Positions 1 through 16,372 of a DNA stretch of 21,253 nucleotides are shown here, piece after piece. Each line of letters opens with the position of its first letter. Positions within the stretch are counted from its first letter, which is position 1. A program made the position numbers and the translations under genes. Origin of the DNA: Actinomycetes bacterium (GTDB lineage: Bacteria; Actinomycetota; Acidimicrobiia; Acidimicrobiales; CADCSY01); contig JAODBP010000351.1 of NCBI GenBank assembly GCA_025464025.1, forward strand, positions 1 to 21,253, in the 5' to 3' direction. The notes beneath the pieces are model-generated. The model searched no databases. It saw only the letters and a program-made list of their open reading frames with translations, and was not told where the DNA came from.

Positions 1-1593
1 CGGTGGCGGGCCTTGGCCCTGGCCTTGTCCCTGGCCGTTCCGCGGCGGGCCGGCATCGTCGACCGTGGTGCCGGCGGCGAGCTGGCGCAGGGCCGAGATC
101 GACGGCTGGAACAGGTAGGCGCCGCCCGTCGTGGTGACGAACCGCTGCAGGAGCGCGATGTGGTCGGGCCGGCCGCCCGGGAGGGTGAAGCTCCGGTTGC
201 CCCGGGCCTGGGAGATCACCGGGTCGACGCCGTCGCCCCGCCGGGGGAAGTCGTCGTCGTTGACCCACCGCGACTGCACGAACTCGAACTGGCGCTCGAT
301 CGAGCTCTGGTAGCAGAGGAACAGCAAGCCCCGGTCGACGGCGGCGCTGGCCGGCGTGCCGTCGTACGACGGTCCGTACGGGATGCCCCGGCGGAGGAGG
401 CGGTGGGTCTGCGTCTCCGACTCGCCGCCGTCCCTCGTCCGCGAGTCGCGGGGGTACACCTTGCGGATGTGGGCGGCCCGGGGCACGACCCGGCCGTCGG
501 GGTCGGCGCCGAACTCGAAGTCGTTGATCGTCGACGGGTCGAGGTGGGCGGGGTCGTCACCGCCCGACTCCAGCGGCGCCCCGCTCGGGAAGCGGCCGAC
601 GAGCTTGGCGCCCATGAGGTCGGCCGGGATCCCCTCTGCCGCCGCGGTGGCGGCGACGAAGGCGCGGAAGCCGGAGACGTCCTGGCGGAGGCGCCGGAAG
701 ACGAGGTACGAGCCGTTCCTGGTCCACGACGGGCCCGACCGCGAGAGGGGGCCGGGCTGGTCGTTGGTGTCCTGGCCCGGCTCGGGGCGGGCGATCTGGG
801 TCGGGTAGCCGACGACGAACTCGCCCGGCCACAGCAGGTCCTGCCCGGGGAGCCCCTGGTCGGGGTCGGCCGGGTTCTGCCGGGCCGTCACGCCGCGGAT
901 GCCGGGCTGCGAGATGCCGTCGCGGAAGCCGAAGTGCTCGTGGCCGGGCTGGTCGGCCCGGGTGTCGCCGGCCTGGTCGAAGGCGACCGCGATGCCGGCT
1001 TGCTGGAGGGCCAGCACCTGGTCGGCGACCAGCCGGGCCAGCGCGCCGGCGCTGTCGGCGGCCAGCAGCAGGAGGCCGTCGACGCCGCCGGCGAAGGGCC
1101 CGACCCAGCGGGCCGGGGCGCTGGCGTCGTCATCGCCGAGGCGGCCGGCCCGAGCGGCCATGCCCTGCCGGAACGCGTCGGGGAAGCCGGCCGTGCCGGC
1201 GCCGAGCCGCCCGAGGCCCGTGGCGGTGAGGGCCACGTTGAGCCACTGGGAGGTGGGCACGTTGGCCTCGCTGCCACGGCGCGAGCGGGCGTCGGCGAAG
1301 AGCTGGTTGAACCGCAGGACCTCGTCCGCCGTGGCCACCTGCTCGACGACGGCGGCCAGCCAGCGACGGGCCGCAGCCGTCTCGCCGAAGCGGAGGAACA
1401 GCAGCCGCTGGTGGTCCTTGTTGAACCCGGCGAGGACGTTGCCCTGGATGTCGGCGAGCTCGATGGTCGGATCGGGGTCGGCGGCTGCCGCCGTCGTGCC
1501 CCCCACCGGGAGGAACGGGCCGAGCGTGCCCAGGGCGGCGCCGAGCCCGCCGGCCCGGAGGATGGCACGGCGGGAGAGCGGTGCGTTGGTCAT
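1..1593 (-). CDS. DyP-type heme peroxidase, Tat-exported (3' end cut by window edge)
   Basis: Dye-decolorising (DyP/EfeB superfamily) peroxidase, which uses H2O2 to oxidise organic substrates at a heme. The ATG at 1593 opens a protein with a twin-arginine signal: SRRAIL near residues 7-12, a hydrophobic Ala/Gly/Leu stretch, then an AAAA region near residue 35, so folded export is expected. The family hallmark GFRDGISQP is visible, with the catalytic Asp at about residue 225, and the probable proximal heme ligand His is at about residue 375 in AAHIRKVYPRD. The frame stays open for 531 codons to position 1, so the C-terminus is missing. The visible tail is low-complexity Gly-Gln repeats followed by prolines. 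The gene is divergent from the two-component system at 1697, with about 100 bp between starts. EfeB (heme/iron-linked) is an alternative label, but no EfeO or EfeU is visible here. Confidence 0.9.
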   Translation of the reverse strand, partial: MTNAPLSRRAILRAGGLGAALGTLGPFLPVGGTTAAAADPDPTIELADIQGNVLAGFNKDHQRLLFLRFGETAAARRWLAAVVEQVATADEVLRFNQLFADARSRRGSEANVPTSQWLNVALTATGLGRLGAGTAGFPDAFRQGMAARAGRLGDDDASAPARWVGPFAGGVDGLLLLAADSAGALARLVADQVLALQQAGIAVAFDQAGDTRADQPGHEHFGFRDGISQPGIRGVTARQNPADPDQGLPGQDLLWPGEFVVGYPTQIARPEPGQDTNDQPGPLSRSGPSWTRNGSYLVFRRLRQDVSGFRAFVAATAAAEGIPADLMGAKLVGRFPSGAPLESGGDDPAHLDPSTINDFEFGADPDGRVVPRAAHIRKVYPRDSRTRDGGESETQTHRLLRRGIPYGPSYDGTPASAAVDRGLLFLCYQSSIERQFEFVQSRWVNDDDFPRRGDGVDPVISQARGNRSFTLPGGRPDHIALLQRFVTTTGGAYLFQPSISALRQLAAGTTVDDAGPPRNGQGQGQGQGPPP

Positions 1594-1696
1594 GGCCGGC
1601 ACGCTCTGCCCCGTCCCTGTGAACGGGCTGAGGCGACCCTGCGCGTCTTCGTAGAGGTCTCCCAGGCACAGCAGATCCACAGGAACCCGTGCGACG

Positions 1697-2392
1697 ATGC
1701 CGCCCATGGCCGAGGCACGCGTGCTCGTCGTGGACGACGACACCAACATCACCGATCTCGTCGGCACCGCGCTCCGCTACGAGGGGTTCGAGGTCGCGCT
1801 GGCTCACGCCGGGCGGGCGGCCATCGACGCGGTGGCCACGTTCCGGCCCGACCTCATCGTGCTCGACGTGATGCTCCCCGACCTCGACGGCTTCGAGGTG
1901 AGCCGGCGGCTCACAGCCGACGGCCGCCGGGTGCCGACGCTCTTCCTCACCGCTCGCGACGCCACCGAGGACAAGGTGCGGGGCCTCACCCTCGGCGGCG
2001 ACGACTACGTCACCAAGCCGTTCAGCCTCGAGGAGCTCATCGCCCGGGTCCGGTCGGTGCTGCGGCGGGCGGGGGGCGAGCAGCAGTCGGCCCGGCTCTC
2101 GTTCGCCGACCTGGAGATGGACGACGACACCCACGAGGTGTGGCGGGGCGGCAGGTCGGTCGAGCTGACGGCCACCGAGTACAAGCTGCTGCGCTACCTC
2201 CTGGCCAACGCCCGCCGGGCGCTGTCGAAGGCCCAGATCCTCGACCACGTCTGGGAGTACGACTTCGGGGGCGACGCCAACGTGGTCGAGACGTACGTCA
2301 GCTACCTCCGCAAGAAGCTCGACCCGCTCGGCCCGCCGCTGATCCAGACCATCCGCGGCGTCGGCTACAGCCTCCGTTCGGCCAAGGAGTAA
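1697..2392 (+). CDS. OmpR/PhoB-family response regulator
   Basis: Cytoplasmic transcription regulator of a two-component system, 231 aa. The receiver domain (about residues 8-120) shows the acidic cluster D13-D15, the phosphoacceptor D57 in VLDVMLPDLDG, T85 in LFLTARD and K107 in VTKPFS. The C-terminal winged helix (about 140-228) has the usual TATEYKLLRYL, an ETYVSYLRKK recognition region and the final RGVGY hairpin. Start: the ATG at 1697 has AGGAA about 11 nt upstream; an in-frame ATG at 1706 is possible and loses only three residues. The stop TAA is followed after 3 nt by the kinase GTG, so the two form one operon. The target genes cannot be read from the sequence; the divergent peroxidase is the obvious candidate. 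Confidence 0.96.
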   Translation: MPPMAEARVLVVDDDTNITDLVGTALRYEGFEVALAHAGRAAIDAVATFRPDLIVLDVMLPDLDGFEVSRRLTADGRRVPTLFLTARDATEDKVRGLTLGGDDYVTKPFSLEELIARVRSVLRRAGGEQQSARLSFADLEMDDDTHEVWRGGRSVELTATEYKLLRYLLANARRALSKAQILDHVWEYDFGGDANVVETYVSYLRKKLDPLGPPLIQTIRGVGYSLRSAKE

Positions 2393-2395
2393 GGC

Positions 2396-3805
2396 GTGCG
2401 GTTCTCGCTCCGCGCGCGGTTGCTGGTGGGTCTGGTGCTGCTGGCCGCCGTGGGCATCGTGGTCGTCGAGGGGGTGACCTACACGTCGCTGCGGTCGTTC
2501 CTCGACGACCGGGTCGAGAAGCAGCTCGACGCGGCGCGGGACCCGATCTCCCGGTCGCTCCAGCCGGCGAACCAGCCGGCCGCGCCGCCCACCCGGCCCG
2601 ACGGCACCCAGCCGGCCGGGCCGCCACAGGTCACCCGGCCCGACGCCCCGCCCGGCACCTACGGCGAGCGACGCAACGCGGCGGGCGAGATCGTCGCGTC
2701 CACGTCGGTGGGCCTCGTGCTGCTGCCGGCCGTCCTGCCCCCGCACGACTTCGAGATCAGCGGCTACCGGGTGCGGTCCGAGGCCATCCCCGGCGACCAG
2801 ACGCTCGTCGTGGCCGTGCCGGTGGCCGACGTGCACGCGACCTTGCGCCGCCTCCTCCGGCTCGAGGCGGCCGTGACCGCAGCCGTGCTGGTCGGCCTCA
2901 CCGTGCTCGCCTGGTGGGTGGTGAAGCTCGGCCTCCGACCCCTCGCCCACATGGAGGAGACGGCCGAGGCCATCGCCGACGGCGACCTCGCCCGCCGGGT
3001 CGGCGACGACGACCCCCGAACCGAGGTCGGCCGGCTGGGGCGCTCGCTCAACGTCATGCTCGGCCGCATCGAGGAGGCGTTCGCCCAGCGCCAGGCGTCC
3101 GAGGACCGGTTGCGCCGCTTCCTCGCCGACGCCTCCCACGAGCTGCGGACGCCGCTCACGTCGATCCGGGGCTACGCCGAGCTGTTCCGGCGGGGCGCCG
3201 ACCGCCGACCCGACGACCTGGCCAAGGCCATGCGCCGCATCGAGGACGAGGCGGCCCGCATGGGTGTCATGGTCGAGGAGCTCCTGCTGCTGGCCCACTT
3301 CGACCAGGGCCGTCCGCTCGACCGCCAGCCGGTCGACCTCGCGCCGCTGGCGTCCGACGCCGTCGACGACGCCCGAGCGGCCAGCCCCGACCGCACCATC
3401 GACCTGGTGGTCGACGGCGCGGTGCCGGTCGAGGCCGACTCGGCTCGGGTCCGCCAGGTGCTGGTGAACCTGATCGGCAACGCCGTCCGGCACACGCCCG
3501 CCGATGCGTCGGTGTCGGTCCGGACCGCGGTCGACGGCGGGTGGGCCGTGCTCGAGGTGGCCGACACGGGTGACGGGCTGGCGCCCGGTGACGAGGAGCG
3601 GGTGTTCGACGCCTTCTACCGGGGGGACCCGGCGAGGCAGCGCGACACCGGCGGCTCGGGGCTGGGGCTCGCCATCGTCGCCGCCATCGCCGCCGCCCAC
3701 GACGGCACCGTGGCGGTGTCGAGCGTGCCCGGCGAGGGCGCCACCTTCACCGTCCGCCTGCCGCTCGCGGCTACGCCTTCACTCGCCGCGCCACCGCGTC
3801 GGTGA
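2396..3805 (+). CDS. Sensor histidine kinase (HAMP, HisKA, HATPase)
   Basis: Membrane sensor kinase, 469 aa, partner of the regulator just upstream. The GTG start is preceded by AAGGAG at a good distance, formed by the last codons of the regulator. Order of parts: TM1 (about 9-27); an extracytoplasmic sensor (about 30-155) with a Pro/Gln-rich stretch near 55-90; TM2 (about 160-176); HAMP (about 178-230); HisKA with the phosphorylated His248 in SHELRTPLTS; and HATPase_c with N-box Asn362 in LVNLIGNAVRHTP, G1 box DTGDGL, F box FDAFYRG and G2 box GGSGLGLAIV. All kinase motifs are intact. The overall layout resembles actinobacterial cell-envelope kinases of the MprB/TcrY type. The stop overlaps the 3' end of the convergent marR-like gene by 35 nt. 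Confidence 0.96.
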   Translation: MRFSLRARLLVGLVLLAAVGIVVVEGVTYTSLRSFLDDRVEKQLDAARDPISRSLQPANQPAAPPTRPDGTQPAGPPQVTRPDAPPGTYGERRNAAGEIVASTSVGLVLLPAVLPPHDFEISGYRVRSEAIPGDQTLVVAVPVADVHATLRRLLRLEAAVTAAVLVGLTVLAWWVVKLGLRPLAHMEETAEAIADGDLARRVGDDDPRTEVGRLGRSLNVMLGRIEEAFAQRQASEDRLRRFLADASHELRTPLTSIRGYAELFRRGADRRPDDLAKAMRRIEDEAARMGVMVEELLLLAHFDQGRPLDRQPVDLAPLASDAVDDARAASPDRTIDLVVDGAVPVEADSARVRQVLVNLIGNAVRHTPADASVSVRTAVDGGWAVLEVADTGDGLAPGDEERVFDAFYRGDPARQRDTGGSGLGLAIVAAIAAAHDGTVAVSSVPGEGATFTVRLPLAATPSLAAPPRR

Positions 3806-4208
3806 GGTCGTCGAGGACGGGGACGACGTCGCCCGGCAGGGCGAGCGACGCCTCCCACTCGTGGAGCTCCCGGTTGACCCGGGTGGCCAGCTCGGCGCCG
3901 ACCGGCGTGAGCTCGACCACGACCCGCCGGCGGTCGGCCGGGTCGGGCGTGCGGACGACCCAGCCGGCGGTGGTGAGCCGGTCGAGGGTGAGCGACATGC
4001 CGCCCGTGGTGCGGCCGAGGACGTCGCAGATCGCCGTCGGTGCGGATCGACCGCCGGGCGCGGCGCGGATCACGCCGAGCACGAGGTAGTCGGCCAGCGC
4101 GATCCCGTGCGCACCGGTGATGCCGTCGAGCACCTGGGTCACGGCGAGGTTGAGGCGGACGATGGCGCCGAGCAGGCCGCCGTCGTCCCAGGACGTCGTG
4201 GCCGTCAC
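3771..4208 (-). CDS. MarR-family transcriptional regulator
   Basis: Winged-helix MarR regulator, 145 aa, about the usual family length. The GTG start at 4208 overlaps the TGA of amidohydrolase A (shared GTGA, 4205-4208), so it is translationally coupled to that gene. The N-terminal dimerisation helices are followed by the recognition region TAICDVLGRTTGGMSLTLDR and a wing DPADRRRVVVELTPVG with the characteristic basic cluster, then a C-terminal helix pair. MarR proteins usually repress their own operon and release DNA on binding a small aromatic or phenolic ligand. A natural target is the 18-bp palindrome at 5441-5458 upstream of this operon; this is inference. The 3' end runs 35 nt into the convergent histidine kinase gene. 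Confidence 0.93.
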   Translation of the reverse strand: MTATTSWDDGGLLGAIVRLNLAVTQVLDGITGAHGIALADYLVLGVIRAAPGGRSAPTAICDVLGRTTGGMSLTLDRLTTAGWVVRTPDPADRRRVVVELTPVGAELATRVNRELHEWEASLALPGDVVPVLDDLTDAVARRVKA

Positions 4209-4693
4209 CTCGAGATGCCGAAGCGCTCGAGGCCGTAGCAGTCGATGGCGTTCTGGCGCAGGAACATGCGGCACTCCTCGGCGTCCATGCCGGCCTCGTG
4301 GCACAGGCGATGGGCCACGGCGCGGGAGTCGGGCCAGGTGCCGTCGGTGTGGGGGTAGTCGGTCTCGAAGAGGATGTGCTGGAGGCCGACGGCGTCGCGG
4401 CTCTTGAGGCCGTGCATGTCGTCGAACACGCAGCCCCACACCCGACCGTGCACGATCTCGCTCGGCGGGCGATCGAGCTTCACGCCTCCGGCGTCCGACC
4501 CGGCGGCCACGATGTCCATCCGCTCGAGCTGGTACGGCATCCACCCGATCTGGCTCTCGGCGAAGGCGATCTTCAGGGTGGGGAACCGTGAGAGCGAGCC
4601 GCTGAACACCCAGTCGCACAGCGACCCGGCCGCGTTGTGCGACGACAGCGCCATGGTGGTGGCGAGCGGCGCGTCGGGCGAGGTGGTGGGCAT
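4205..4693 (-). CDS. Amidohydrolase A, C-terminal part (after in-frame TAG)
   Basis: C-terminal 162 codons of an amidohydrolase-2 (ACMSD-like, TIM-barrel metal hydrolase/decarboxylase) protein. It is in the same frame as the upstream part (4694-5425), and its ATG follows the TAG directly. It holds the second half of the barrel: SLCDWVFSGSLSRFPTLK, SQIGWMPYQLERMD, and the catalytic Asp in FETDYPHTDGTWPD (codon 356 of the joined frame). Alone it lacks the N-terminal metal-binding DDH. The frame is clean with no further stop, which suggests that the break is recent, is read through, or is a sequence error. If translated separately it would depend on restart at the TAG-ATG junction. It overlaps the marR-like gene by 4 nt at its end. 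Together the two parts make 406 codons, against 407 aa for the intact paralogue at 19161-20384. Confidence 0.8.
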   Translation of the reverse strand: MPTTSPDAPLATTMALSSHNAAGSLCDWVFSGSLSRFPTLKIAFAESQIGWMPYQLERMDIVAAGSDAGGVKLDRPPSEIVHGRVWGCVFDDMHGLKSRDAVGLQHILFETDYPHTDGTWPDSRAVAHRLCHEAGMDAEECRMFLRQNAIDCYGLERFGISR

Positions 4694-5425
4694 CTACGAC
4701 GACGAGCCGATGTGCATCGACACTGTTGTCGCCGTCTCCTCGCACGCCTGACAGAGCACGTCCCACTCGCCCGAGTAGAGCGACGGGAACCCGAGCTTCG
4801 ACGGGTTCTCGGAGAAGGCGATGGCGTGGCTGCCCTTCGCCGTGCAGCGGCGGACCTCGTCGGCCGCGAGCTGCGGGTCCCACAGGGGCACGAGCGTCAG
4901 CGGGATCAAGCGGCCCTTGGCGTCGCCGCCGCACCACTCGTCGATCATCCAGTCGTTGTAGATCTCGAGGCAGGCCTGGGCCAGGACCTTGTCGGCCCGC
5001 TCGGCGAAGCCCTGGCCGGCGAAGCGGGGGAACGTGTTGGGGTAGTTGATGGCCACCTCGACGTGGTTGGTGTCCATGTCGATCAAGCGGGCCTTCTTGT
5101 CGTAGACGCCCTCGCGGAAGTCCTCGTAGATGGCCGGCACGTTGACCTGGTCCTCGGGGGCGTAGCCGGCGGCGGCGTGGAGGAGGCCGGTCGGCATGAC
5201 CAGGTCGTCGAACAGCCACAGGTCGCACCACCGGCCGTCGGGGTCGTCGCGGGTGAAGCCGTAGTGGCCACCCTCGAAGTGGAGGCTGACCTTCTCGCGC
5301 GACACCTTCGGGCCCCGCTCCCGCAGGTCGGCCGGGAGCTCCTCCTGCCACAGCTCCCGCGGCTCGAGGATGTGGTCGTCGACCGAGATGATGAGGGGCA
5401 GGTCGTGCTCGGCAGGCGTCGTCAT
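4694..5425 (-). CDS. Amidohydrolase A, N-terminal part (ends at an in-frame TAG)
   Basis: N-terminal 243 residues of an amidohydrolase-2 family protein. The ATG at 5425 has GGAGG a few nt upstream. Visible family features are SVDDHILEP near residue 16 (putative metal-binding Asp/His at 17-18), NYPNTFPRFAGQGF, a PLTLVPLWDP strand and MHIGSSS with His238, a likely metal ligand. Translation stops at TAG after SSS. In family members as I know them the run continues as SSS, then a basic residue (Lys/Arg), then MPTTSPDAP, so one base change (AAG to TAG) would explain the break. The remaining 162 codons follow in frame. The gene is preceded by SDR1 with a 120-bp gap carrying a palindromic operator, and is followed by the rest of the enzyme and MarR. 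Alternatives are a pseudogene, a split enzyme or a sequencing error. Confidence 0.85.
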   Translation of the reverse strand: MTTPAEHDLPLIISVDDHILEPRELWQEELPADLRERGPKVSREKVSLHFEGGHYGFTRDDPDGRWCDLWLFDDLVMPTGLLHAAAGYAPEDQVNVPAIYEDFREGVYDKKARLIDMDTNHVEVAINYPNTFPRFAGQGFAERADKVLAQACLEIYNDWMIDEWCGGDAKGRLIPLTLVPLWDPQLAADEVRRCTAKGSHAIAFSENPSKLGFPSLYSGEWDVLCQACEETATTVSMHIGSSS

Positions 5426-5440
5426 GGGGTCCTCCGCAAA

Positions 5441-5458
5441 TAGCTTTCTGCAAAGCTA
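5441..5458. promoter_or_regulatory. Palindromic operator upstream of amidohydrolase A
   Basis: TAGCTTTCTGCAAAGCTA is a perfect 7-bp inverted repeat with a 4-bp spacer, 16 bp before the ATG at 5425 and next to its ribosome site. On the gene strand its left end (TAGCTT) also fits a TANNNT -10. The size and symmetry suit a MarR dimer, and a marR-like gene sits at the end of this operon. A second, shorter repeat (GAGCT-TGCG-AGCTC, 5473-5486) lies 30 bp away centre to centre. Confidence 0.6.
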
Positions 5459-5545
5459 CCTGGCCCAGGTGCGAGCTTGCGAGCTCCGCATCAGCACAGT
5501 GGTTCTTTCGGACGCTCGCGGCGGGTGGATCTGTCGGCAGACCTG

Positions 5546-6289
5546 CTAGAGGTTCATGAAACGTCCGCCGTCGACGACGAGGGTCTGGCCCGTCACGTAA
5601 CGGGCCTCCTCCGACAGCAGGAACAGCACGGGCGGCGTGTTGTCGACCAGCGGATCGCCCAGCCAGCCCAACGGCACCTTGGTGGCCAGGCGGGGCTGGA
5701 GCGACGGGTCGTTGGCGAACGCCGCGGTCAGCGCCTCGGTGGCCGACAGCGGCGACACGGCGTTGACGGTGTGGCCCCGGTGGGCCCACTCCCGGGCCAG
5801 GCTCTTGGTGAACCCGCGGAGGCCGCCCTTCACCACGCCGTAGAGCGGGTTCATCGGGCTGCCCTCCATGCCGGCCGGCGAGGTCATGAGGACGAGCCGG
5901 CCGTCCCGCTCGGGCAGCTTCGGCAGGGCGCACTGGGCCACGTGGAAGGCACCCGTGAGGGACACGTCGGCGTGGTCGCGCCACTCCTCCCGGGTGACCT
6001 CGATGAGCCTGGCCGGCATGCTCGAGAGCCGGCTGGTGGCGTTGTGCACCACGCCGTGGATGATGTCGAACGAGTCGAACGCAGCTTCGACGTCCTCCCG
6101 CTCGGTCACGTCGCACTTGATCCAGACGGCGCCGTTGCCGGCCTCGTCGGCCGTGGCCTTCCCGTTGTCGCCGTGGGAGGTGACGATCACCTTGGCCCCG
6201 GCGCGGGCCGCGCCGATGCACAGGGCCTTGCCCAACCCGGCGCCACCGCCGGTGACGAGGATGGTCTTGCCGCTCAGGTCGATGGTCAC
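5546..6289 (-). CDS. Short-chain dehydrogenase/reductase (SDR1), catalytically intact
   Basis: Classical SDR oxidoreductase of 247 aa, using NAD(P)(H) to interconvert an alcohol and a ketone. The Rossmann motif TGGGAGLG is at residues 13-20. The catalytic triad is Ser137 (LMTSPAG), Tyr150 and Lys154 (LYGVVKGG). The C-terminal TGQTLVVDGG strand is present. The GTG start at 6289 overlaps the TGA of SDR2 (GTGA, 6286-6289), so SDR1 is translationally coupled to the degenerate SDR2. Downstream, after 120 bp, comes amidohydrolase A on the same strand. The substrate cannot be assigned; the pairing suggests that SDR1 and SDR2 work or assemble together. A longer open frame upstream of the GTG is only the antisense shadow of SDR2. 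Confidence 0.93.
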   Translation of the reverse strand: MTIDLSGKTILVTGGGAGLGKALCIGAARAGAKVIVTSHGDNGKATADEAGNGAVWIKCDVTEREDVEAAFDSFDIIHGVVHNATSRLSSMPARLIEVTREEWRDHADVSLTGAFHVAQCALPKLPERDGRLVLMTSPAGMEGSPMNPLYGVVKGGLRGFTKSLAREWAHRGHTVNAVSPLSATEALTAAFANDPSLQPRLATKVPLGWLGDPLVDNTPPVLFLLSEEARYVTGQTLVVDGGRFMNL

Positions 6290-6846
6290 GGGACCAGGAC
6301 CGTTCCGCCGTCGACGACGAGCGTGGCGCCGGTGACGCCGCTCGACTCCTTGGACGCCAGGAGGGCCACGGCCCCGGCGACGTCCTCGACGGTCGGAGGA
6401 CCGAACGTCGGGATGGCGACCTCGGGGCCGCCGACCCGGCGGGCCACGCACGAGACGCGGATGCCGTCGGCGCCCCACTGGCGGGCCGCCGTCTTGGTGA
6501 GCGAGCGCACGCCCTCGGCCGCCGTGGCCAGCGGCACCAGGCCGGCGGCGCCGGTGAGGCCGAAGCTCGGCGTGACGAACACGATGTTGCCGCCGGTCCC
6601 GGCCATCCGGGCATGGGCGGCGTGGGCCGCGTCGATGGCGTCGCGGATCGGGAGGTCGCACCGGCGGTCCCAGTCCTCGGCCGTCAGGTCGGCGAGCGAG
6701 ACCTCGTCGAGGTCGCCGGTGACGACGTGGACGACGACGTCGACGGGACCCTCGGGACCGACCAGCTCGGCGCCGTGGGCGGCGAGGGCGTCGGTGAGGG
6801 TTCCGTCGTCGCCACTGACGTGGAGGGTTCGGCCGCTGAGGAGCAT
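6286..6846 (-). CDS. Degenerate SDR-family protein (SDR2), catalytic Tyr/Lys missing
   Basis: SDR-fold protein of only 186 aa, against about 250 for the family. The dinucleotide loop is reduced to SGDDGTL (residues 11-17) in place of TGxxxGxG, with a shortened second strand and helix. Where classical SDRs have YxxxK, this one reads LATAA, so Tyr is Leu106 and Lys is Ala110; the surrounding EGVRSLTKTAARQW, GIRVSCVA and TGATLVVDGG are preserved. It is therefore probably not an oxidoreductase on its own; a structural partner of SDR1, whose start overlaps its stop, is a reasonable inference. Start choice: the ATG at 6846 has TACCAT exactly 7 nt upstream on the same strand, a leaderless -10 arrangement. 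An ATG three codons earlier (6855) lies inside that element and has no ribosome site. Confidence 0.82.
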   Translation of the reverse strand: MLLSGRTLHVSGDDGTLTDALAAHGAELVGPEGPVDVVVHVVTGDLDEVSLADLTAEDWDRRCDLPIRDAIDAAHAAHARMAGTGGNIVFVTPSFGLTGAAGLVPLATAAEGVRSLTKTAARQWGADGIRVSCVARRVGGPEVAIPTFGPPTVEDVAGAVALLASKESSGVTGATLVVDGGTVLVP

Positions 6847-6853
6847 GGGCGGC

Positions 6854-6859
6854 ATGGTA
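6854..6859 (-). promoter_or_regulatory. Leaderless -10 element (TACCAT) for SDR2
   Basis: TACCAT on the minus strand fits the actinobacterial TANNNT -10 and ends 7 nt before the ATG at 6846. This places the expected transcription start at or next to the A of the ATG. No Shine-Dalgarno sequence is present for this gene. Confidence 0.5.
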
Positions 6860-6869
6860 GGGAGAGCCG

Positions 6870-7664
6870 GTGATCGAAGAGCGATTGGGCCTCGAGGGCA
6901 AGCGCATCGTCGTCGTCGGCGCCGGCGGCGGCGGGATCGGCACCGGCATCGTGAAGATGCTCGAAGAGGCCGGGGCCGAGCCCATCGGCATCGACGTCGA
7001 CCCCGAGCAGGGCTACCGAACGGCGGACGCGGCCGACGAGGCATCGGTCACCGCCGCCCTCGCCGACGTCGACGAGCTCGACGGCCTGGTCCACGTGGTG
7101 GGCGGGTTGCCCACGGCCCGGTGGGACAAGGTCGTCGACGCCCCCACCGAGGCGTGGCTCGAGGTCCTCACCCGCAACGTGATCACGGCGACCGTCTCGA
7201 CCCGGGTGGTCGCGCGGAAGCTCCTGGCCGCCGGCCGTCCCGGCTCGATCGTGAACATCGCCTCCATCGTCGGGCTGGAGTCCATGCCCTACGGCGCGCC
7301 CTACGCGGCGTCGAAGGCGGCGCTCATCAACTTCACCCGGACCGCCGCGGTCGAGCTCGGGCCCCACGGGATCCGGGTGAACGCCGTCGCCGTGGGCACC
7401 ATCCGCGTGCCGCAGAACAAGACCCGGGCGCCGGCGCTGGACACGCCCGAGACCAAGGCCGTCCTCCCGCTGGGCCGCCGGGGCACGCCCGAGGACATCG
7501 CCGGGCCGGTGCTGTTCCTGCTCTCCGACCTGGCCGGATTCGTCACCGGCTCGGTGCTCACCGCCGACGGCGGCGCCACGGCCCGTCCCGGCTACATGGA
7601 CGCCGACAACCTGCCGGTGTTCGTGCCCGAGGGCGAGCTCCGGTCGAGGCTCACCGGTCGCTGA
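6870..7664 (+). CDS. Short-chain dehydrogenase/reductase (SDR3)
   Basis: Classical SDR, 264 aa. The GTG start at 6870 has GGGAG about 6 nt upstream. The cofactor loop GAGGGGIGTG lies at residues 17-26, and an acidic residue after strand 2 (GIDVDPE) suggests NAD(H) preference. Ser132 (NIASIVG), Tyr145 and Lys149 (YAASKAA) form the catalytic set, so the enzyme should be active, unlike its divergent neighbour SDR2. The usual NNAG motif is replaced by HVVGG near residue 75, as in a subset of SDRs. The C-terminus TGSVLTADGG is complete, with a short extension. Its start codon is only 23 bp from the SDR2 ATG, so any -35 element must lie within SDR2 coding sequence. The 3' end overlaps the convergent phosphatase-like gene by 14 nt. 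Confidence 0.94.
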   Translation: MIEERLGLEGKRIVVVGAGGGGIGTGIVKMLEEAGAEPIGIDVDPEQGYRTADAADEASVTAALADVDELDGLVHVVGGLPTARWDKVVDAPTEAWLEVLTRNVITATVSTRVVARKLLAAGRPGSIVNIASIVGLESMPYGAPYAASKAALINFTRTAAVELGPHGIRVNAVAVGTIRVPQNKTRAPALDTPETKAVLPLGRRGTPEDIAGPVLFLLSDLAGFVTGSVLTADGGATARPGYMDADNLPVFVPEGELRSRLTGR

Positions 7665-8634
7665 AGCGCAGTTGGGTGACGACGGCCCGGTGGTCGCTGC
7701 CCGGGATGGTGGCCTCGTCGACGTCGCGGACGACGACGTCCTTCGACACGAGGACGTGGTCGAGCAGCGCGAACGGCGGGCCCGGCTTGTTCGTCGGCCA
7801 GGTCGTGGCCAGGCCCCGGCCCCGCTCCAGGTGGGCGTCGAGCAGGCCGTGCTGGAGGAGCGCCCGGAAGCCGTGGTGCTGGCGGGTGGCGTTGAAGTCC
7901 CCGGCCAGCACCAGCGTGCCCTTGGTGCGCTCGGCCTCGTAGTCGAGCTCGGCCAGCTGCTGGCGCAGGATGCCGAGGCCGGCCAGGGGTTGGAGCGTGT
8001 GCACGGCGAAGACCGTCGCCGGACCGGACGGGAGGGCCACCTCGGCCGTGAGGAGCGGGTAGCCGACCAGGTCGCGCTGGCGCTGGTCGGTGAGCGGGTA
8101 GCGGCTCCAGATCAGCGCGCCGAAGGCGGTGGCGCCGCCCCGAGCATCGGTCATCCGGTACTGCAGGTCGTCGAGCGCCGTGATCCGCTCCAGGGCGCGC
8201 GCCATGTCGGGGGACAGCTCGAGCACCACGAGCACGTCCGGGTGCAGCGACGCCAGCCGTGCAGCCGCCCGGGCCGGATCGGGGTTCCCGTGGTAGGTGT
8301 TCGCCGAGACGACCCGGATCGTCGGGCCGCGGCCGGTGCGGTGCTCCCGCGGCCACCAGCGGACGTCGGGCCCGACCCAGACGAGGTGGCAGAGGACGAC
8401 GACGGCGGCGACGCCGACCATCAGCCGTCGACGGGTGATGGTGGCGCCGGCGAGCACCAGCCAAGCCGGCAGCAGCAGCCAGAGGGTGAGCGACTCGAGG
8501 GCGAACGGGCGGCCCAACCGGTCGAGCAGGCCGACGATCCGCAGGGCGGCGAAGCCCGCGAGCGGTGCCAGGACCAGCCACCCGGCGACGGACACGGGCC
8601 GGCGTGCGGGGGAGGCCGTCACGCCCGGCATCAT
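7651..8634 (-). CDS. Membrane-anchored endonuclease/exonuclease/phosphatase (EEP) family protein
   Basis: 327-aa protein with three predicted N-terminal membrane helices (about residues 16-37, 46-66 and 71-90) followed by an EEP-fold hydrolase domain (about 104-325). Catalytic-type residues are visible: Asn112 in SANTYHGN, Glu139 in VVLELSPD, Asp246 and Asn248 in GDFNATRQ, and Asp314-His315 in GSDHRAVV. Family members cleave phosphodiester or phosphoester bonds of nucleic acids, phosphoinositides or sphingomyelin; the substrate here is unknown, and the catalytic domain is probably on the outer face. Two start codons, 8634 and 8631 (ATGATG), are possible. The divergent transglutaminase-like gene begins 5 nt away. 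The 3' end overlaps SDR3 by 14 nt. Confidence 0.92.
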   Translation of the reverse strand: MMPGVTASPARRPVSVAGWLVLAPLAGFAALRIVGLLDRLGRPFALESLTLWLLLPAWLVLAGATITRRRLMVGVAAVVVLCHLVWVGPDVRWWPREHRTGRGPTIRVVSANTYHGNPDPARAAARLASLHPDVLVVLELSPDMARALERITALDDLQYRMTDARGGATAFGALIWSRYPLTDQRQRDLVGYPLLTAEVALPSGPATVFAVHTLQPLAGLGILRQQLAELDYEAERTKGTLVLAGDFNATRQHHGFRALLQHGLLDAHLERGRGLATTWPTNKPGPPFALLDHVLVSKDVVVRDVDEATIPGSDHRAVVTQLRFSDR

Positions 8635-8642
8635 GGTGCATG
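8629..8642. promoter_or_regulatory. Abutting divergent start codons
   Basis: The string CATCATGGTGCATG holds the ATG of the EEP gene (minus, 8634) and the ATG of the transglutaminase-like gene (plus, 8640) with only GGTGC between. CATCAT, 5 nt before the plus ATG, could serve as a weak -10. No Shine-Dalgarno site can fit for either gene outside the other gene's coding sequence. Confidence 0.45.
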
Positions 8643-9404
8643 GACACCCACGTCGGATGCGCGCTCTCGTTCGACGTCGATGCCGGGACCGAGCTGCTGC
8701 TCCAGATCGCCCCGACGGTGGTGGCCAGCGAGGAGCTGACGCTCAGCATCGGCGAGGTGCGCGAGCTGCCGGGCGCTCACGGGGCGCGCCTCCACGTCAT
8801 CACCGCGCCGGCCGGCCGGCTCGACGTGACGTACTCGGCCACCGTCCCGCCGGGGGAGCCGGGCCCGTCCGTGCCGCTCGACACCGACGTGATCGACGCC
8901 CTCCGGCCCAGCCGCTACTGCCCGTCCGACGCCCTCGAGGGGTTCGCCCCCACGGAGCTGGCCGGGGTCGACGACGTGGCCGACTGGGTCTTCGAGCGCT
9001 TGGCCTACGTGGTCGGGGCCAGCGGTCCGCTCGACACGGCGATCGACACGCTGCTCGCCGGCCGGGGCGTGTGCCGCGACTTCGCCCACCTCACGATCGC
9101 CCTGTGCCGGGCGACGGGCGTGCCGGCCCGCCTGGTGTCGGTGTACGCCCCCGGCCTGTCGCCGATGGACTTCCACGCCGTGGCCGAGGTGCACGACGGC
9201 GAGCAGTGGCACGTCGTCGACGCCACCCGGCTGGCGCCCCGCCACTCGCTCGTGCGGATCGCCACCGGGCGCGACGCCGCCGACACCGCCTTCGCCATGA
9301 CGCTGGCCGGGAGCGCCGAGCTGCTGTCCACCGAGGTCACCGCCGTGATCGACGGCGACCTCCCACTCGACGACCACCGCTCGCCGGTCGTGCTCCCGTC
9401 CTAG
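8640..9404 (+). CDS. Transglutaminase-like cysteine peptidase-fold protein
   Basis: 254-aa cytosolic protein of the bacterial transglutaminase-like superfamily. An N-terminal beta domain (LSFDV...LLLQIAPT, about residues 1-80) precedes the papain-like core with the catalytic triad Cys145 in GRGVCRDFAHL, His179 in DFHAVAEV and Asp194 in HVVDAT. Such proteins are thought to cleave or cross-link amide bonds; the exact role is unknown, and many are proteases rather than true transglutaminases. It has no signal peptide. The start at 8640 gives an N-terminus (MDTHVGCALSFDV) that looks complete for the family. The gene is divergent from the EEP gene with 5 nt between start codons, and converges on the adenine deaminase homologue with a 50-bp gap holding only weak short repeats. 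Confidence 0.93.
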   Translation: MDTHVGCALSFDVDAGTELLLQIAPTVVASEELTLSIGEVRELPGAHGARLHVITAPAGRLDVTYSATVPPGEPGPSVPLDTDVIDALRPSRYCPSDALEGFAPTELAGVDDVADWVFERLAYVVGASGPLDTAIDTLLAGRGVCRDFAHLTIALCRATGVPARLVSVYAPGLSPMDFHAVAEVHDGEQWHVVDATRLAPRHSLVRIATGRDAADTAFAMTLAGSAELLSTEVTAVIDGDLPLDDHRSPVVLPS

Positions 9405-9454
9405 GGGCAGGAGGGTCGTCGTCGACGGCAGCAACCTCGCCCCCACCGTCGCGC

Positions 9455-11173
9455 TCAGGTGACGGCGAGGTCGGCCAGGTCGAAGGTGTCGACGTCGAGC
9501 ACGCCGCGGTCGGTGATGCGCAGCTTCGGGATGGCGGTGAGGGCCAGGAAGCTGAGCTGCATGAACGGGGCGTCGATTGTGGCCCCGATGCCGACGGCGG
9601 CCGCGCTCACCGCTTCCAGCACGTCGGCCACCTCGTCGAACGGCCGGTCGCTCATGAGCCCGGCGATCGGCAACGCGATCTCACCGATCACCTCGCCGTC
9701 GTGCACCGCCACCTGGCCGCCGCCGAGCTCGGCCAGCCGGGCCACGGCCCGGGCCATGTCCCGCCGGCCCGCCTCGGTGCGGGGTCCGACCACGACGACG
9801 TTGTGGGCATCGTGGGCCACCGTCGACGCCAGGGCGCCCTCGAGCGGGCCGAAGCCGGTGACGTAGCCGGTGCCGATGCGGCCGGTCCCGCGGTGGCGCT
9901 CGACCACGGCGACCAGGGCGACCTCGGGGCCGGCCGTCGCCAGGTCGACCTCCTCCTGGGTGGTGAGGATGGTGCCAGGAACCAGGCCGATCACCTTCGT
10001 GATGCCATCCGGTTCGGGTGTGGCGAACGCCTCGGGTGCCGGTCGTGCGCCGAGCCGCACCGAGTGGCGCATCCACGCCGGCGGCGGCGCGTCGGGCACG
10101 GCACCGTCGACGAGTCGGCCGTCGCGGGCGACGACCTGGCCCTTCTGGAGGACGAGGGAGGGCTCCCACGTCGAGAGGTCGTCGAACACCAGCACGTCGG
10201 CCTGGAAGCCGGGCCCGAGGTGCCCGAGGTCGCGGAAGCCGTGGTAGAGCGCGCCGTTGGTGCACGCCGCGACCAGCGCGTCCTCCATCCGCACGCCGGA
10301 GGCCACGGCGATGCGGGCGCAGTCGTTGACGTGGCCGGCGGTGCGCAGCAGGTGCGGCTCGCGGTCGTCGGTGCACAGGGCGACCAGGTCGGTGCCGAAC
10401 CGGGTCAGCAGGGGCGACAGCTCCCGCACGTTCCGGCTGGCCGAGCCCTCGCGTGCGAACACCCACATGCCCTTGCGGCGCTTCTCGAGCGCCTCCTCGT
10501 AGTGCACGCACTCGTGGTCGGACTCGACGCCGGCGGTGAGGAAGGCGTCGAGGGCGGCGCCGGTCAGGCCCGGCGCGTGCCCGTCGACCCGCCGGTGCCC
10601 GGCGGCGGCGATCTTGGCCAGGACCTCGGGGTCGCCGGCCGCGGCGCCGCGCCAGTCGCCGATCTCGGCCACGCCGACGGCGCCGTGCTCGCCCAGCAGG
10701 GCGCTGACGCCTGCGCTGTCGATCACCGCGCCAGCCGACTCCCAGTGCGACACCGGCACCGAGGCCGACGCGCAGACGCCAAAGGTGAACGGCAGCCCTT
10801 CGGCTGCCTGGGCCAGGGCCACGATGCCCTCGATGCCGAAGACGTTGCCGACCTCGTGCGGGTCGGCGGCCACGGCGGTGGTGCCGTGCGGCAGCACGGC
10901 ACGCACGAACTCGTCGACCCAGAGCTTGGTGGACTCGAGGTGCATGTGGGCGTCGACGAACGCCGGGGTCACCGAGGCCCCGTCGACGTCGATCACCTCG
11001 AGCGCGTCGCGGCGGCCCCACGCCACGACCCGCCCGTCGGCGATCGCCAGGTCGGTCGGGATCCACTCGCGGGTGGCCGGGCTGAAGACCCGGCCGCCGG
11101 TGAGCAGCAGGTCGGCGGGCTCGTCGCCCCGGGCGGCGGCGAGGGCGCGGAGGGTGATCGGGGAGCGGGCCAC
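9455..11173 (-). CDS. ade: Adenine deaminase (amidohydrolase superfamily)
   Basis: Catalyses adenine to hypoxanthine plus ammonia if the assignment is right; 572 aa, the usual length for Ade. Motifs: PAFVDAHMHLES with the HxH metal pair at residues 76-78, ADPHEVGNVFGIEG, the DGHAPGL...ESDHE metal-binding segment, CTDDREP with the catalytic Asp, and the C-terminal Ade-specific domain with HDAHNVVVVG and SFLALTAIPKLRITDRG. The GTG start at 11173 sits 1 nt after the TGA of the Rieske oxygenase gene, so the two are almost certainly co-transcribed and translationally coupled. That partnership is unusual for a salvage enzyme and leaves open a related purine or modified-purine substrate. An open frame extending upstream of the GTG is only an out-of-frame reading of the oxygenase gene. 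Confidence 0.93.
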   Translation of the reverse strand: MARSPITLRALAAARGDEPADLLLTGGRVFSPATREWIPTDLAIADGRVVAWGRRDALEVIDVDGASVTPAFVDAHMHLESTKLWVDEFVRAVLPHGTTAVAADPHEVGNVFGIEGIVALAQAAEGLPFTFGVCASASVPVSHWESAGAVIDSAGVSALLGEHGAVGVAEIGDWRGAAAGDPEVLAKIAAAGHRRVDGHAPGLTGAALDAFLTAGVESDHECVHYEEALEKRRKGMWVFAREGSASRNVRELSPLLTRFGTDLVALCTDDREPHLLRTAGHVNDCARIAVASGVRMEDALVAACTNGALYHGFRDLGHLGPGFQADVLVFDDLSTWEPSLVLQKGQVVARDGRLVDGAVPDAPPPAWMRHSVRLGARPAPEAFATPEPDGITKVIGLVPGTILTTQEEVDLATAGPEVALVAVVERHRGTGRIGTGYVTGFGPLEGALASTVAHDAHNVVVVGPRTEAGRRDMARAVARLAELGGGQVAVHDGEVIGEIALPIAGLMSDRPFDEVADVLEAVSAAAVGIGATIDAPFMQLSFLALTAIPKLRITDRGVLDVDTFDLADLAVT

Positions 11174-11174
11174 G

Positions 11175-12164
11175 TCAGGCGTAGGGCGGCAGGTCGCCGG
11201 CGGCCATGTCGGCGTACATGCGGCGCAGCTCGACCGAGCCGCGGTCGCACTTGAGGTGCACGTTGGCGGTGAGGTCGGTGGCATAGGCCGGCGGCAGGGC
11301 GTCGAGGATGTGGCGGTCCTCCTCCTGCACCTTGGTGTCGAAGCGGACGATCTCCTCGACGGCGAGCGGGTCGCCGGCGTCGTTGCGCATGACGAGCTGC
11401 ACGAGCCGGCTCGTGCTGTCGTCGACGGGCACGCATCCCTTCACCATGATGTGCACGAGGCCGTCGGGGTACTCGATGCGGAACACGCCGAGGAAGGGGC
11501 CGACGACATCGATGGTCAGGTTGCGCTCGCTCTCGCCCACGTCGCCCGGCTTGGCCTTGATCGGCAGGACGGTGGCCATGCGAATGCCCTCGGCCGTGCG
11601 CTCCACGAGCCGGGGCGACGGCACGCGCGTGTCGTCGCTGCCGAACGTCCCGCTGTGCACGAACGAGAGGTGGGCGCCGTCCATGTTGTTGTCGAGGAGG
11701 TGCGGCGCGCTGCAGGCCCACTCGTCGTCGAACTCGTGGAGGTTCCACCAACCGTCGTCGTCGTACTCCGGCAGCTCGGGGATGCCGCCGATCGGATCGG
11801 GGTCGAGCGACGCCCAGACGATGCCGTAGCGGACCGTCGAGGTCACCAGGTCGAGCTGGGCCTTCGGCGGCAGCGTGCTGCCCGGTTCGAGGGCCGGGAT
11901 GGCTCGGACCTTGCCATCGCTGCCGTACTCCCAGCCGTGGTACGGGCAGACGATGGCGCCGTCGTCGCACTGCCAGCCGGCCGACAGTCGGGCATCGCGG
12001 TGCGGGCAGCGGTCGGCGGCCACGGATGCCTCGCCATCCGGGTCGATCCACACGACGAGATCGGAGCCGAGCAGGCGGCGGTGGTGGGGCCGCCCGGCCA
12101 GGCGGTCGACGAAGCCGAGGGGATACCAGAAGCGCCGGAAGGCCGCGGTGTCCGAGACGAGCAT
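11175..12164 (-). CDS. Rieske [2Fe-2S] non-heme iron oxygenase
   Basis: Oxygenase component of a Rieske-type ring-hydroxylating or O/N-demethylating system, 329 aa, in the size range of the short VanA-like class. The Rieske cluster ligands are Cys53 and His55 (RCPHRDARLSAG) and Cys73 and His76 (CPYHGW). The mononuclear iron site follows NxxDxxHx4H, with Asn159, Asp162, His165 and His170 (NNMDGAHLSFVH). A reductase partner is not in the window. Start: ATG 12164 is used here; a GTG at 12182 would add MSETGP. A perfect 12-bp inverted repeat brackets the ATG, which would place it in a hairpin loop of the mRNA. The stop is 1 nt before the adenine deaminase homologue. The substrate is unknown. Confidence 0.93.
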   Translation of the reverse strand: MLVSDTAAFRRFWYPLGFVDRLAGRPHHRRLLGSDLVVWIDPDGEASVAADRCPHRDARLSAGWQCDDGAIVCPYHGWEYGSDGKVRAIPALEPGSTLPPKAQLDLVTSTVRYGIVWASLDPDPIGGIPELPEYDDDGWWNLHEFDDEWACSAPHLLDNNMDGAHLSFVHSGTFGSDDTRVPSPRLVERTAEGIRMATVLPIKAKPGDVGESERNLTIDVVGPFLGVFRIEYPDGLVHIMVKGCVPVDDSTSRLVQLVMRNDAGDPLAVEEIVRFDTKVQEEDRHILDALPPAYATDLTANVHLKCDRGSVELRRMYADMAAGDLPPYA

Positions 12165-12183
12165 GGGCCCAGTCTCGGACACC
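12147..12183. repeat. Perfect 12-bp inverted repeat around the Rieske gene start codon
   Basis: GGTGTCCGAGAC (12147-12158) and GTCTCGGACACC (12172-12183) are exact reverse complements separated by 13 bp. The ATG of the oxygenase gene (12164-12162) lies in the spacer and the alternative GTG (12182-12180) lies in one arm. It could be an operator or an mRNA hairpin that presents or hides the start codon. Confidence 0.65.
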
Positions 12184-12238
12184 CCTGTTTCCCGCCCGTT
12201 TCGGCGGGTTGACAGACTGTTGAACTACGACCGGTGCA

Positions 12239-13141
12239 CTACGAGCGGGCCTTCACCATGCGGCGGATGCCGTCCTGCCACGGCACCTTGCACGGGCCGG
12301 TGATGGCCAGGCGCTTGGTGTTGTCGGAGATGGCGCTGCGCTGGGTGCCGGGGAAGTCGCCGACCTGCACCTCCACCGGTCGGCCGAGCTCCTCGCCGAT
12401 GAGGGCGCACCACTGCTGGGCGCTCACCGGCTCGTCACCGGCCCAGTTCACGATCGTGGCCGGCACGGTGGCGGCGTGGAGCAGCGCCTCGGTCTGCTCG
12501 CAGATGTCGTCCTCGTGGATCGGGCTGTAGACGCACGGGTCCCAGCGGGTGACCACCGGCTTGCCCTCGAGGGCGGCGGCCAGGTGGTTGCCGGGCAGGC
12601 CGCCGTTGTCGCCGTACGAGGCGTTCATGCGGGCGATGATCACCGGCAGGCCGAGCGACCGGGCGCAGTAGCGGGCCACCGCCTCCTGGCCGATCTTCGA
12701 CACCGAGTACGCCGGGGCGTGCATCGAGTTGGCGTCGCCCAGCGGATCGGTCTCGACGTAGGGGAGGGTCGGGTCGTCCTTGGGCCGGTAGGTCGAGAAC
12801 GTCGACATCACCAGGGCGGCCTTGGCCTTCCGGCAGTGCTGGAGCAGCAGGCCGGTGCCCTCGGCGTTGTTGCGGATGGCGCTGTCGTAGTCCAACCCGC
12901 CGCTCTGGTCGGCGGCCAGGTGCAGCACGTAGGTGAAGTCGTCAGGCAGGTCGCCGAACTCGCCGTCGCCCAGGTTGATGGCTCGGGTGGTGACGCCGTA
13001 GCCCTCGACCCGGGTCTTGGTCTCGGGGTCGCCGAAGCGTGCGATGCCCCACACCTCGTTGTCCTTGGCCAGGTACCGCGTCAGGGGCTCGGCGATCTGG
13101 CCGGCGGGTCCGGTGATGAGGATCTTCTCGTCGGTGAGCAT
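12239..13141 (-). CDS. NAD-dependent epimerase/dehydratase (extended SDR)
   Basis: 300-aa extended-SDR protein of the NAD-dependent epimerase/dehydratase family, acting on a nucleotide-sugar or another hydroxy compound. The cofactor motif TGPAGQIA is at residues 10-17, a STFSTY region carries the catalytic Ser/Thr, and Tyr145/Lys149 form YSVSK. An unusual Gly-to-Pro change sits in the first loop (GPAGQIA for GxxGxxG), which still fits the extended class. The SPIHEDDICEQTEALL segment is typical of the family. The ATG at 13141 has TACGTT 8 nt upstream on its strand, a possible leaderless promoter that overlaps the -10 of the divergent thiolase-like gene. The Rieske gene follows on the same strand after 56-74 bp. 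No sugar pathway is otherwise visible, so a ketone or alcohol substrate is possible. Confidence 0.92.
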   Translation of the reverse strand: MLTDEKILITGPAGQIAEPLTRYLAKDNEVWGIARFGDPETKTRVEGYGVTTRAINLGDGEFGDLPDDFTYVLHLAADQSGGLDYDSAIRNNAEGTGLLLQHCRKAKAALVMSTFSTYRPKDDPTLPYVETDPLGDANSMHAPAYSVSKIGQEAVARYCARSLGLPVIIARMNASYGDNGGLPGNHLAAALEGKPVVTRWDPCVYSPIHEDDICEQTEALLHAATVPATIVNWAGDEPVSAQQWCALIGEELGRPVEVQVGDFPGTQRSAISDNTKRLAITGPCKVPWQDGIRRMVKARS

Positions 13142-13149
13142 CAAGCGGG

Positions 13150-13159
13150 AACGTACTGT
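13150..13159. promoter_or_regulatory. Overlapping divergent leaderless -10 elements
   Basis: AACGTACTGT holds TACTGT on the plus strand (13154-13159), 6 nt before the ATG at 13166, and TACGTT on the minus strand (13155-13150), 8 nt before the ATG at 13141. The whole gap between the two start codons is 24 bp and has no ribosome site for either gene. Confidence 0.6.
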
Positions 13160-13165
13160 GCGCGC

Positions 13166-14620: not shown

Positions 14621-14621
14621 G

Positions 14622-14673
14622 CGAACCCGCGACGGATGGTGGACACATCTGTCCACCGGTCGGCGCGGGTTCG
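14622..14673. terminator. Nested hairpin, likely bidirectional terminator
   Basis: An outer 10-bp perfect stem (CGAACCCGCG 14622-14631 with CGCGGGTTCG 14664-14673) encloses, through a partly paired 6x6 internal region, an 8-bp perfect stem (GGTGGACA 14638-14645 with TGTCCACC 14650-14657) and a CATC tetraloop. It fills the 54-bp gap between two convergent stop codons almost exactly. There is no T-tract on either side. Confidence 0.7.
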
Positions 14674-14674
14674 G

Positions 14675-15196
14675 TCAGGCGGGGGTGGAGATGCCGACGC
14701 CGCCGCGGGTGTCGGCGCCGAACTTGGCCTTCTCCTTGGCGATGTCGAGGTGCTCGATGCCCTTGCGGCCCTCGAGGGCGACCTCGTCGAGCAGGTCGGC
14801 CGGGATGATCCACGCGACCTCGAACTCGATGCCGTCGGGATCGTGGGCGTAGAGGCTCTTGGTCGTGCCGTGGTCGGAGGCGCCGACGAGTGCGCCCTTC
14901 GCCGTCAGCACGCCGGCCAGCCGCTCGAGCTCGTCGAGCGTGTCGACCTCCCAGGCCAGGTGGTAGAGCCCCACCGAGGTGCGGCCGGCCCCCGAGGGGG
15001 CGGCCGCATCGCCGACGGTGAACAGGCCGAGGTCGTGGTCGTTGGTCGACCCCGGCGCCTGGAGGAACACGGCACCGTTCCAGCCCTCGGGCCCGATCGG
15101 GATGCGCCGGAAGCCGAGCACCTCCTCGTACCAGGCCGCGCTGGCGAGCGCGTCGCGGACGTAGAGCACGGCGTGGTTCAGGCGCTGGATCGGCAT
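14675..15196 (-). CDS. VOC-superfamily protein (glyoxalase/extradiol dioxygenase fold)
   Basis: 173-aa vicinal-oxygen-chelate protein made of two beta-alpha-beta-beta-beta modules. Likely metal ligands are His8 (LNHAVLYV), His79 (LYHLAWEVD) and Glu126 (PDGIEFEVAW), the pattern of extradiol dioxygenases, glyoxalases and epimerases. A short C-terminal extension (about 130-173, rich in charged residues) follows the core. The ATG at 15196 has a strong GGAGGGG site. The promoter just upstream contains an 18-bp palindrome with a TTGCAG core. The gene follows the lipocalin/CrtC-like gene on the same strand after 45 bp but appears to have its own promoter. Ring cleavage is possible given the neighbouring oxygenase genes, but the reaction cannot be fixed from the sequence. 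Confidence 0.92.
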   Translation of the reverse strand: MPIQRLNHAVLYVRDALASAAWYEEVLGFRRIPIGPEGWNGAVFLQAPGSTNDHDLGLFTVGDAAAPSGAGRTSVGLYHLAWEVDTLDELERLAGVLTAKGALVGASDHGTTKSLYAHDPDGIEFEVAWIIPADLLDEVALEGRKGIEHLDIAKEKAKFGADTRGGVGISTPA

Positions 15197-15205
15197 GTCC
15201 CCTCC

Positions 15206-15233
15206 AACCTAGTTGCAGATACAACTATTCCAA
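15206..15233 (-). promoter_or_regulatory. Promoter and palindromic operator of the VOC gene
   Basis: On the minus strand TTGGAA (15233-15228) and TAGGTT (15211-15206) are 16 bp apart, a fair -35/-10 pair. The inverted repeat TAGTTG-CAGATA-CAACTA (15210-15227) fills the spacer and touches the -10, as expected for a repressor site. GGAGGGG (15205-15199) follows as ribosome site. Confidence 0.6.
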
Positions 15234-15241
15234 GGCGTTGC

Positions 15242-16315: not shown

Positions 16316-16321
16316 TGGGCG

Positions 16322-16366
16322 ACCTTAGGCACGACTCCTCACGTCGCGACGCCTCGGCACTAGGTT
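16322..16366. promoter_or_regulatory. Divergent leaderless promoters (CrtC-like gene and aldo/keto reductase)
   Basis: TAAGGT on the minus strand (16327-16322) is followed by CGCCCA and the ATG at 16315. TAGGTT on the plus strand (16361-16366) is followed by CGCCCC and the ATG at 16373. The two share the same 6-nt spacing and nearly the same spacer. Neither has a Shine-Dalgarno site or a clear TTGACA. Confidence 0.6.
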
Positions 16367-16372
16367 CGCCCC

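Follow-up and report, generated by a model that had tools for sequence, protein, structure and literature searches.

A single in-frame TAG directly before a conserved methionine codon interrupts an otherwise intact amidohydrolase gene

Introduction

Proteins of the Amidohydro_2 family are metal-dependent hydrolases or decarboxylases. The closest described relatives of the gene considered here are actinobacterial ‘TIM-barrel metal-dependent hydrolases’ of about 406 amino acids that belong to this family (PF04909), among them the orthologue at the sister locus L001 and the database proteins P0001-P0003, which are 85–93% identical to it. By sequence, the most similar chains of solved structure are DitZ (8uyr) and PtmU3 (6omp; phmmer E-values of 7.5e-48 and 6.1e-33, respectively); both are distant from the protein of this locus in sequence, and the solved proteins are single chains.

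Bacterial genes interrupted by a nonsense codon, that is young pseudogenes, are a known kind. Gene pairs coupled by termination and reinitiation have stop and start codons that overlap as ATGA or TGATG (PMC6728339, PMC10666635). According to PMC10666635, reinitiation declines sharply as the distance grows, and no other arrangement is nearly as common as a short overlap. PMC6728339 describes how removal of the Shine-Dalgarno motif substantially lowered reinitiation in four of five E. coli pairs.

The locus described here has likenesses to both. It lies in a window of 21,253 nucleotides, the whole stretch of DNA that we analyzed, which has the same gene order as the L001 contig. The window copy differs from the L001 orthologue and from P0001-P0003 in having a TAG at codon 244 and a cysteine at codon 225. 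With young pseudogenes it shares one stop, no other decay and many paralogues in the sister genome; with termination-reinitiation pairs it shares a stop and a start that abut. Unlike in such pairs, its junction has no sequence overlap and no Shine-Dalgarno match and was not seen in the loci of relatives. Among the papers listed by literature searches, none concerned the amidohydrolase gene itself.

Results and discussion

Translation of positions 5425-4205 on the minus strand yields a frame of 407 codons, the final TGA counted, with one internal stop and no further stops or frameshifts. This bears out the earlier note on this DNA, made from the sequence alone, which had described a lone in-frame TAG at codon 244, between MHIGSSS and MPTTSPDAP, with an ATG behind it. 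The span that it gave, 4690..4696, places the site correctly and is one base too wide, the ATG occupying 4691-4693 and the TAG 4694-4696. The features of the interrupted gene and of its two neighbors are as follows.

4694-5425, minus strand: N-terminal part of an Amidohydro_2 protein, 243 amino acids, ending at the internal TAG and containing the predicted barrel strands as far as the conserved MHIGSSS histidine (translation, Pfam, model)
4694-4696, minus strand: TAG, codon 244; serine codon TCG in the sister L001 (translation and sister comparison)
4691-4693, minus strand: ATG right after the TAG; Met in 121 of 121 aligned relatives (alignment)
4205-4693, minus strand: C-terminal part, 162 amino acids, with the FETDYPH motif and an Amidohydro_2 match above the cut-off (Pfam; 97.5% identical to the sister over 161 amino acids)
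4751-4753, minus strand: codon 225, TGT (Cys) (alignment to 121 relatives)
3771-4208, minus strand: MarR-family regulator, ending in TAG (Pfam MarR_2, 49 bits on 3771-4205)
5546-6310, minus strand: short-chain dehydrogenase upstream of the amidohydrolase, ending in TAG (Pfam adh_short_C2, 152 bits on 5573-6310)

Both parts match Amidohydro_2 (PF04909), the C part with 43.5 bits (profile 151-289) and the N part with 26.2 bits (profile 47-146). The curated cut-off is 26.4 bits, which the C part exceeds and the N part alone misses by a narrow margin. The claim that the joined length equals that of a 407-amino-acid paralogue in the window is correct only if this paralogue starts at GTG 19161, which has AGGAGG upstream; from ATG 19119 its ORF has 421 amino acids, and the agreement in length means little. 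By tblastn, the two parts match the sister contig in a single shared frame, with 88% identity for residues 1-240 and 97.5% over 161 amino acids, and the interrupted frame is thus not a chance ORF.

We modeled the read-through frame with AlphaFold2 (35 sequences, mean pLDDT 82.7, pTM 0.88; numbering is that of the ORF minus one). The model places the stop in a low-confidence loop (model residues 240-245, pLDDT <50) that follows the strand bearing the conserved histidine. As read with the stop, the gene does not encode a single unbroken chain with a complete (beta/alpha) barrel: five core strands of the model lie in the N part (E11-18, E121-128, E172-174, E200-204 and E233-237) and three in the C part (284-287, 328-332 and 350-352), the selection of core strands being our own. 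The DDH motif and the histidine of MHIG are in the N part and the aspartate of FETDYPH is in the C part. We take these to be metal or catalytic sites of the superfamily and, because they are divided between the parts, neither part should be active alone. A break in a predicted loop makes reassembly of the two parts conceivable, not likely.

We searched 5.8 billion proteins with the read-through frame; 8000 candidates were scored, and 6631 of them matched. The 120 proteins listed are 394–425 amino acids long, save for one partial sequence of 382, and the two nearest are 92–93% identical. The length limits of this search select unsplit proteins, so that the residue at the stop column is informative and the rate of splitting is not. 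We ran the alignment at codon 244 that the earlier note had proposed, using these 120 proteins and the L001 orthologue (n = 121): the stop column holds Ser in 62, Thr in 38, Lys in 13, Gln in 5, Ala in 2 and His in 1, and no relative has a stop. Likewise, all of the best 80 of 211 genome loci have a sense codon at the site (AAG 43, AAA 15, TCG 9, ACG 4, AGC 4, ACC 2, CGC 2 and CGG 1; that is, Lys 58, Ser 13, Thr 6 and Arg 3). Lysine and arginine prevail among these loci because 63 of the 80 are only 51–54% identical; the first 16 listed have Ser (10) or Thr (6). Among a further 23 loci (L081-L103), scanned on a single strand, only 9 showed the codon pattern, and these loci were left out of the counts. 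The earlier note had given Lys/Arg as the residue in relatives, which turns out to be typical of distant ones, close relatives having mainly Ser or Thr. Its derivation of the TAG from AAG is likewise unsupported, since close relatives have Ser/Thr and the syntenic sister has TCG, the codon also found at window codons 241-243. By this comparison, a serine codon is the likely ancestral state at codon 244.

The closest genomic relative is L001 (MAG RYN_34, Acidimicrobiales; 92% identical), in which the gene is uninterrupted. We consider it about an even call that the window carries an ordinary full-length amidohydrolase (~406 amino acids) in which a serine codon would have undergone one recent nonsense substitution, seen solely in this sequence. 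Among its options, the earlier note had listed a sequence error and a new nonsense mutation; either of these origins stays plausible, and its description of a nonsense codon in an otherwise intact amidohydrolase stands.

Interrupted family members were also sought in 98 genomes that, like the sister genome G001 among them, were reached via a locus and taken as relatives. G001 alone has 24 matches to the query. Among the matches listed for these 98 genomes (64 with matches), two amidohydrolases are interrupted by a single TGA and none by a TAG. Interrupted members turn up now and then in this multiplied family. In-frame TGA codons, one each, occur in the paralogous amidohydrolases of G026:C199, G070:C38 (57202-58386), G002:C169 and G001:C288.

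The sister contig (L001/L103) is colinear with window positions 33-18721 in four blocks of 82–87% nucleotide identity. Relative to the sister, 29 codon differences in the N part change the amino acid and 41 are silent; for the C part the numbers are 5 and 31 (Fisher p = 0.004). By NG86, this contrast is smaller than the codon counts imply (dN 0.068 and dS 0.33 for the N part, dN 0.054 and dS 0.32 for the C part), four TCG/AGC exchanges at serine codons inflating the dN of the C part. When eight proteins were taken as outgroups, the changes in the C part fell on the window lineage in two cases and on the sister lineage in two, with one ambiguous; those in the N part fell on the window lineage in 10 cases and on the sister lineage in 17, with two ambiguous. 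Neither the codon counts against the sister nor these lineage changes give any sign of relaxed constraint on the C part after the stop, and we rejected relaxed selection on the C part on these grounds. A recombinant or chimera with a foreign C part was also rejected: dS is alike in the two parts (0.33 and 0.32), and the blastn match runs unbroken through the gene.

For the greater part of its history since divergence from the sister, the C part has thus been under constraint. The gene displays no further decay or relaxed constraint of the kind that marks pseudogenes, so it is either a young one or no pseudogene at all. As the C part is without decay, the stop arose very recently or is a base error. 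Put more broadly, the stop may be very young, it may be missing from the organism, or the C part may remain in use, for which strong conservation is also expected.

That the TAG is a wrong base call in a metagenome-type consensus, with an intact gene in the organism, is a real possibility, if one that we would bet against. The TAG is seen in one sequence only, in a frame without other decay, and it has a singular companion nearby. At codon 225, the 121 relatives have Trp (113), Phe (7) or Leu (1), and Cys225 is the sole residue of the window protein that is unseen in them at well-covered columns. The base changed in Trp225Cys is 56 bases away from the one changed in the stop, and both changes, read directly against the sister, are one-base G:C to T:A transversions. 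Transversions of this type are common in oxidation-damaged DNA. Trp225Cys may point, weakly, to poor base quality rather than biology. Singular residues as such are not rare, however: a leave-one-out count gave 0–11 per protein (none in L001), and five of the ten nearest proteins (P0003, P0004, P0008, P0009 and P0010) carry one or two at 90%-conserved sites, so that one per protein is not unusual. The substitution fits either a young mutation or a base error. Two further points speak against a wrong call. There is no comparable break elsewhere: the two pieces of this gene aside, 16 frames, picked as open in the window and each a single open frame there, match the sister contig without a stop in the sister. 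In addition, the C part is present in the protein database as P0121, whose cluster has five member sequences, and the split frame might thus have been assembled more than once, although the members may be contig-end fragments.

The junction itself invites the reading that the earlier note had raised as one option, a stop and restart. All 121 aligned relatives have a Met directly behind the position of the stop; among the best 80 of 211 loci, 77 have an ATG there and three a CTG. On these grounds, the ATG would most likely predate the stop. Elsewhere in the ORF there are 123 one-base opportunities for a nonsense codon. Five of these would be followed directly by ATG, ten by ATG, GTG or TTG, and 87 have an in-frame ATG or GTG in the range from -5 to +10 codons. 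By this count, a junction of TAG and ATG is close to chance expectation. In the 20 bases upstream of the ATG at 4691-4693, no Shine-Dalgarno match of at least 4 bases was found. The start of the amidohydrolase at 5425 has GGAGG upstream, and of the 13 starts examined, three more, all assumed ones (marR, Rieske and Gfo/Idh), also have no match, which makes a missing motif weak evidence alone. By analogy to coupled pairs, a zero-base junction could permit some reinitiation.

Searches with the separate parts bear on whether homologues are normally split. Under length limits that exclude full-length proteins, the search with the C part gave 98 proteins, including the window's own P0121. The starts of the 97 others are scattered, and five (P0129, P0139, P0143, P0191 and P0200, on contigs of 1058–2099 bases) begin exactly at the equivalent methionine; as far as it goes, this counts against a plain nonsense codon. 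The search with residues 26-243 of the N part gave 848 proteins, of which 120 were listed and 116 were new, and none of these 116 ends at SSS. Two of them, P0219 and P0228, on contigs of 1403 and 1447 bases, stop at MHIG and so miss the SSS end by three residues, and P0231 loses similarity right after residue 243 and continues with other sequence, as if frameshifted. The earlier note had named homologues that are normally two proteins with a boundary elsewhere as what would overturn its interpretation; among the proteins listed, the ends of the pieces scatter, and no conserved split is seen. We therefore rejected a conserved split family: the pieces begin and end at many places, as contig-end fragments or mis-calls would. 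The window's own 243-residue N part is absent from the 120 listed matches, where it would be expected at the top rank, and the contig's own annotation apparently does not contain it.

A working two-piece enzyme would require ribosomes to stop at the UAG and restart at the abutting AUG, and the resulting parts of 243 and 162 amino acids to form one barrel. The distance of zero between stop and start suits the steep dependence on distance given in PMC10666635. The predicted position of the break in a loop after a strand, the strong conservation of the C part, the five C-part hits that start at the equivalent methionine and the loss of similarity in P0231 are also in its favor. Against it, the methionine is conserved in all 121 unsplit relatives and hence was not selected for restart, and the motif whose removal reduced reinitiation in four of the five E. 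coli pairs in PMC6728339 is missing. Stop and start do abut as in coupled genes (TAG 4694-4696, ATG 4691-4693), yet a Shine-Dalgarno motif before the second start, contributory rather than essential, is lacking, and so is a two-gene arrangement in relatives, with a sense codon in all of the best 80 of 211 loci and 0 of 116 N parts (from 120 listed of 848) ending at SSS. We hence regard the two-piece enzyme as very improbable, and the stop-restart junction of the earlier note is not supported.

Programmed or suppressed read-through, by pyrrolysine, an amber-suppressor tRNA or reassignment of TAG, is very improbable in our estimate. It would account for a single in-frame TAG with constraint on both flanks. 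TAG, however, is an ordinary stop in this DNA. It ends 7 of the 20 other window gene frames examined, for which we chose the gene bounds. Five TAG-ended genes were tested against their orthologues in the sister: three of the orthologues stop at the same codon and two at most three codons away, and two of the five use TGA and three TAG. A search for PylS gave no score above the cut-off among 98 relatives, 70 of which have weak matches short of it, and one score above it among 14 controls; no tRNA gene was found in the window. The relatives' loci (best 80 of 211) have no stop at the site. The usage of TAG as a local stop and the result for PylS in the 98 relatives led us to reject reassignment of TAG, and they tell against the read-through that the earlier note had offered as an option.

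Returning to a recent nonsense substitution in a serine codon, we infer that the change is real in the organism, that it has the young age given above and that activity is lost. Ribosomes would terminate at the UAG and release a 243-amino-acid fragment with barrel strands 1–5, which would be probably inactive because the last three strands and FETDYPH are missing. Some ribosomes may restart at the abutting AUG, only weakly since there is no Shine-Dalgarno match, and thereby make the 162-amino-acid C part and maintain some flow into marR. The loss would be tolerable because the family is highly multiplied in the closest genome. It is very improbable, in our view, that we have caught a newborn split barrel, in which a nonsense change before a conserved methionine would have created a co-translated pair of 243 and 162 amino acids that still folds and works, a snapshot of gene fission. 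Should both parts prove to be made and to assemble, the locus would offer a useful case of gene fission, caught in nature at birth. As it stands, the case is a minor one, an ordinary hydrolase gene with one nonsense codon, a kind already known. It also carries a caution: a tidy TAG-ATG junction can arise merely because the next residue is a conserved methionine.

The earlier note had called the marR gene translationally coupled to the second half, and the overlap is real: its GTG (4208-4206) shares bases with the TGA (4207-4205), giving GTGA. The sister orthologue of the MarR regulator ends at the same place with TGA, and that of the short-chain dehydrogenase ends at the same place, also with TAG. 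For another minus-strand ORF, at 7651-8634, which from reading its sequence we take to be endonuclease/exonuclease/phosphatase-like, tblastn at E 1e-20 found no counterpart on sister contig L103, although that contig is otherwise colinear. Long spurious ORFs are usual in G+C-rich DNA, and very long mechanical ORFs at 13-3573 (plus strand), 3771-6614 (minus strand) and 4637-5443 (plus strand) lie in part antisense to the likely genes of the window or in a different frame from them.
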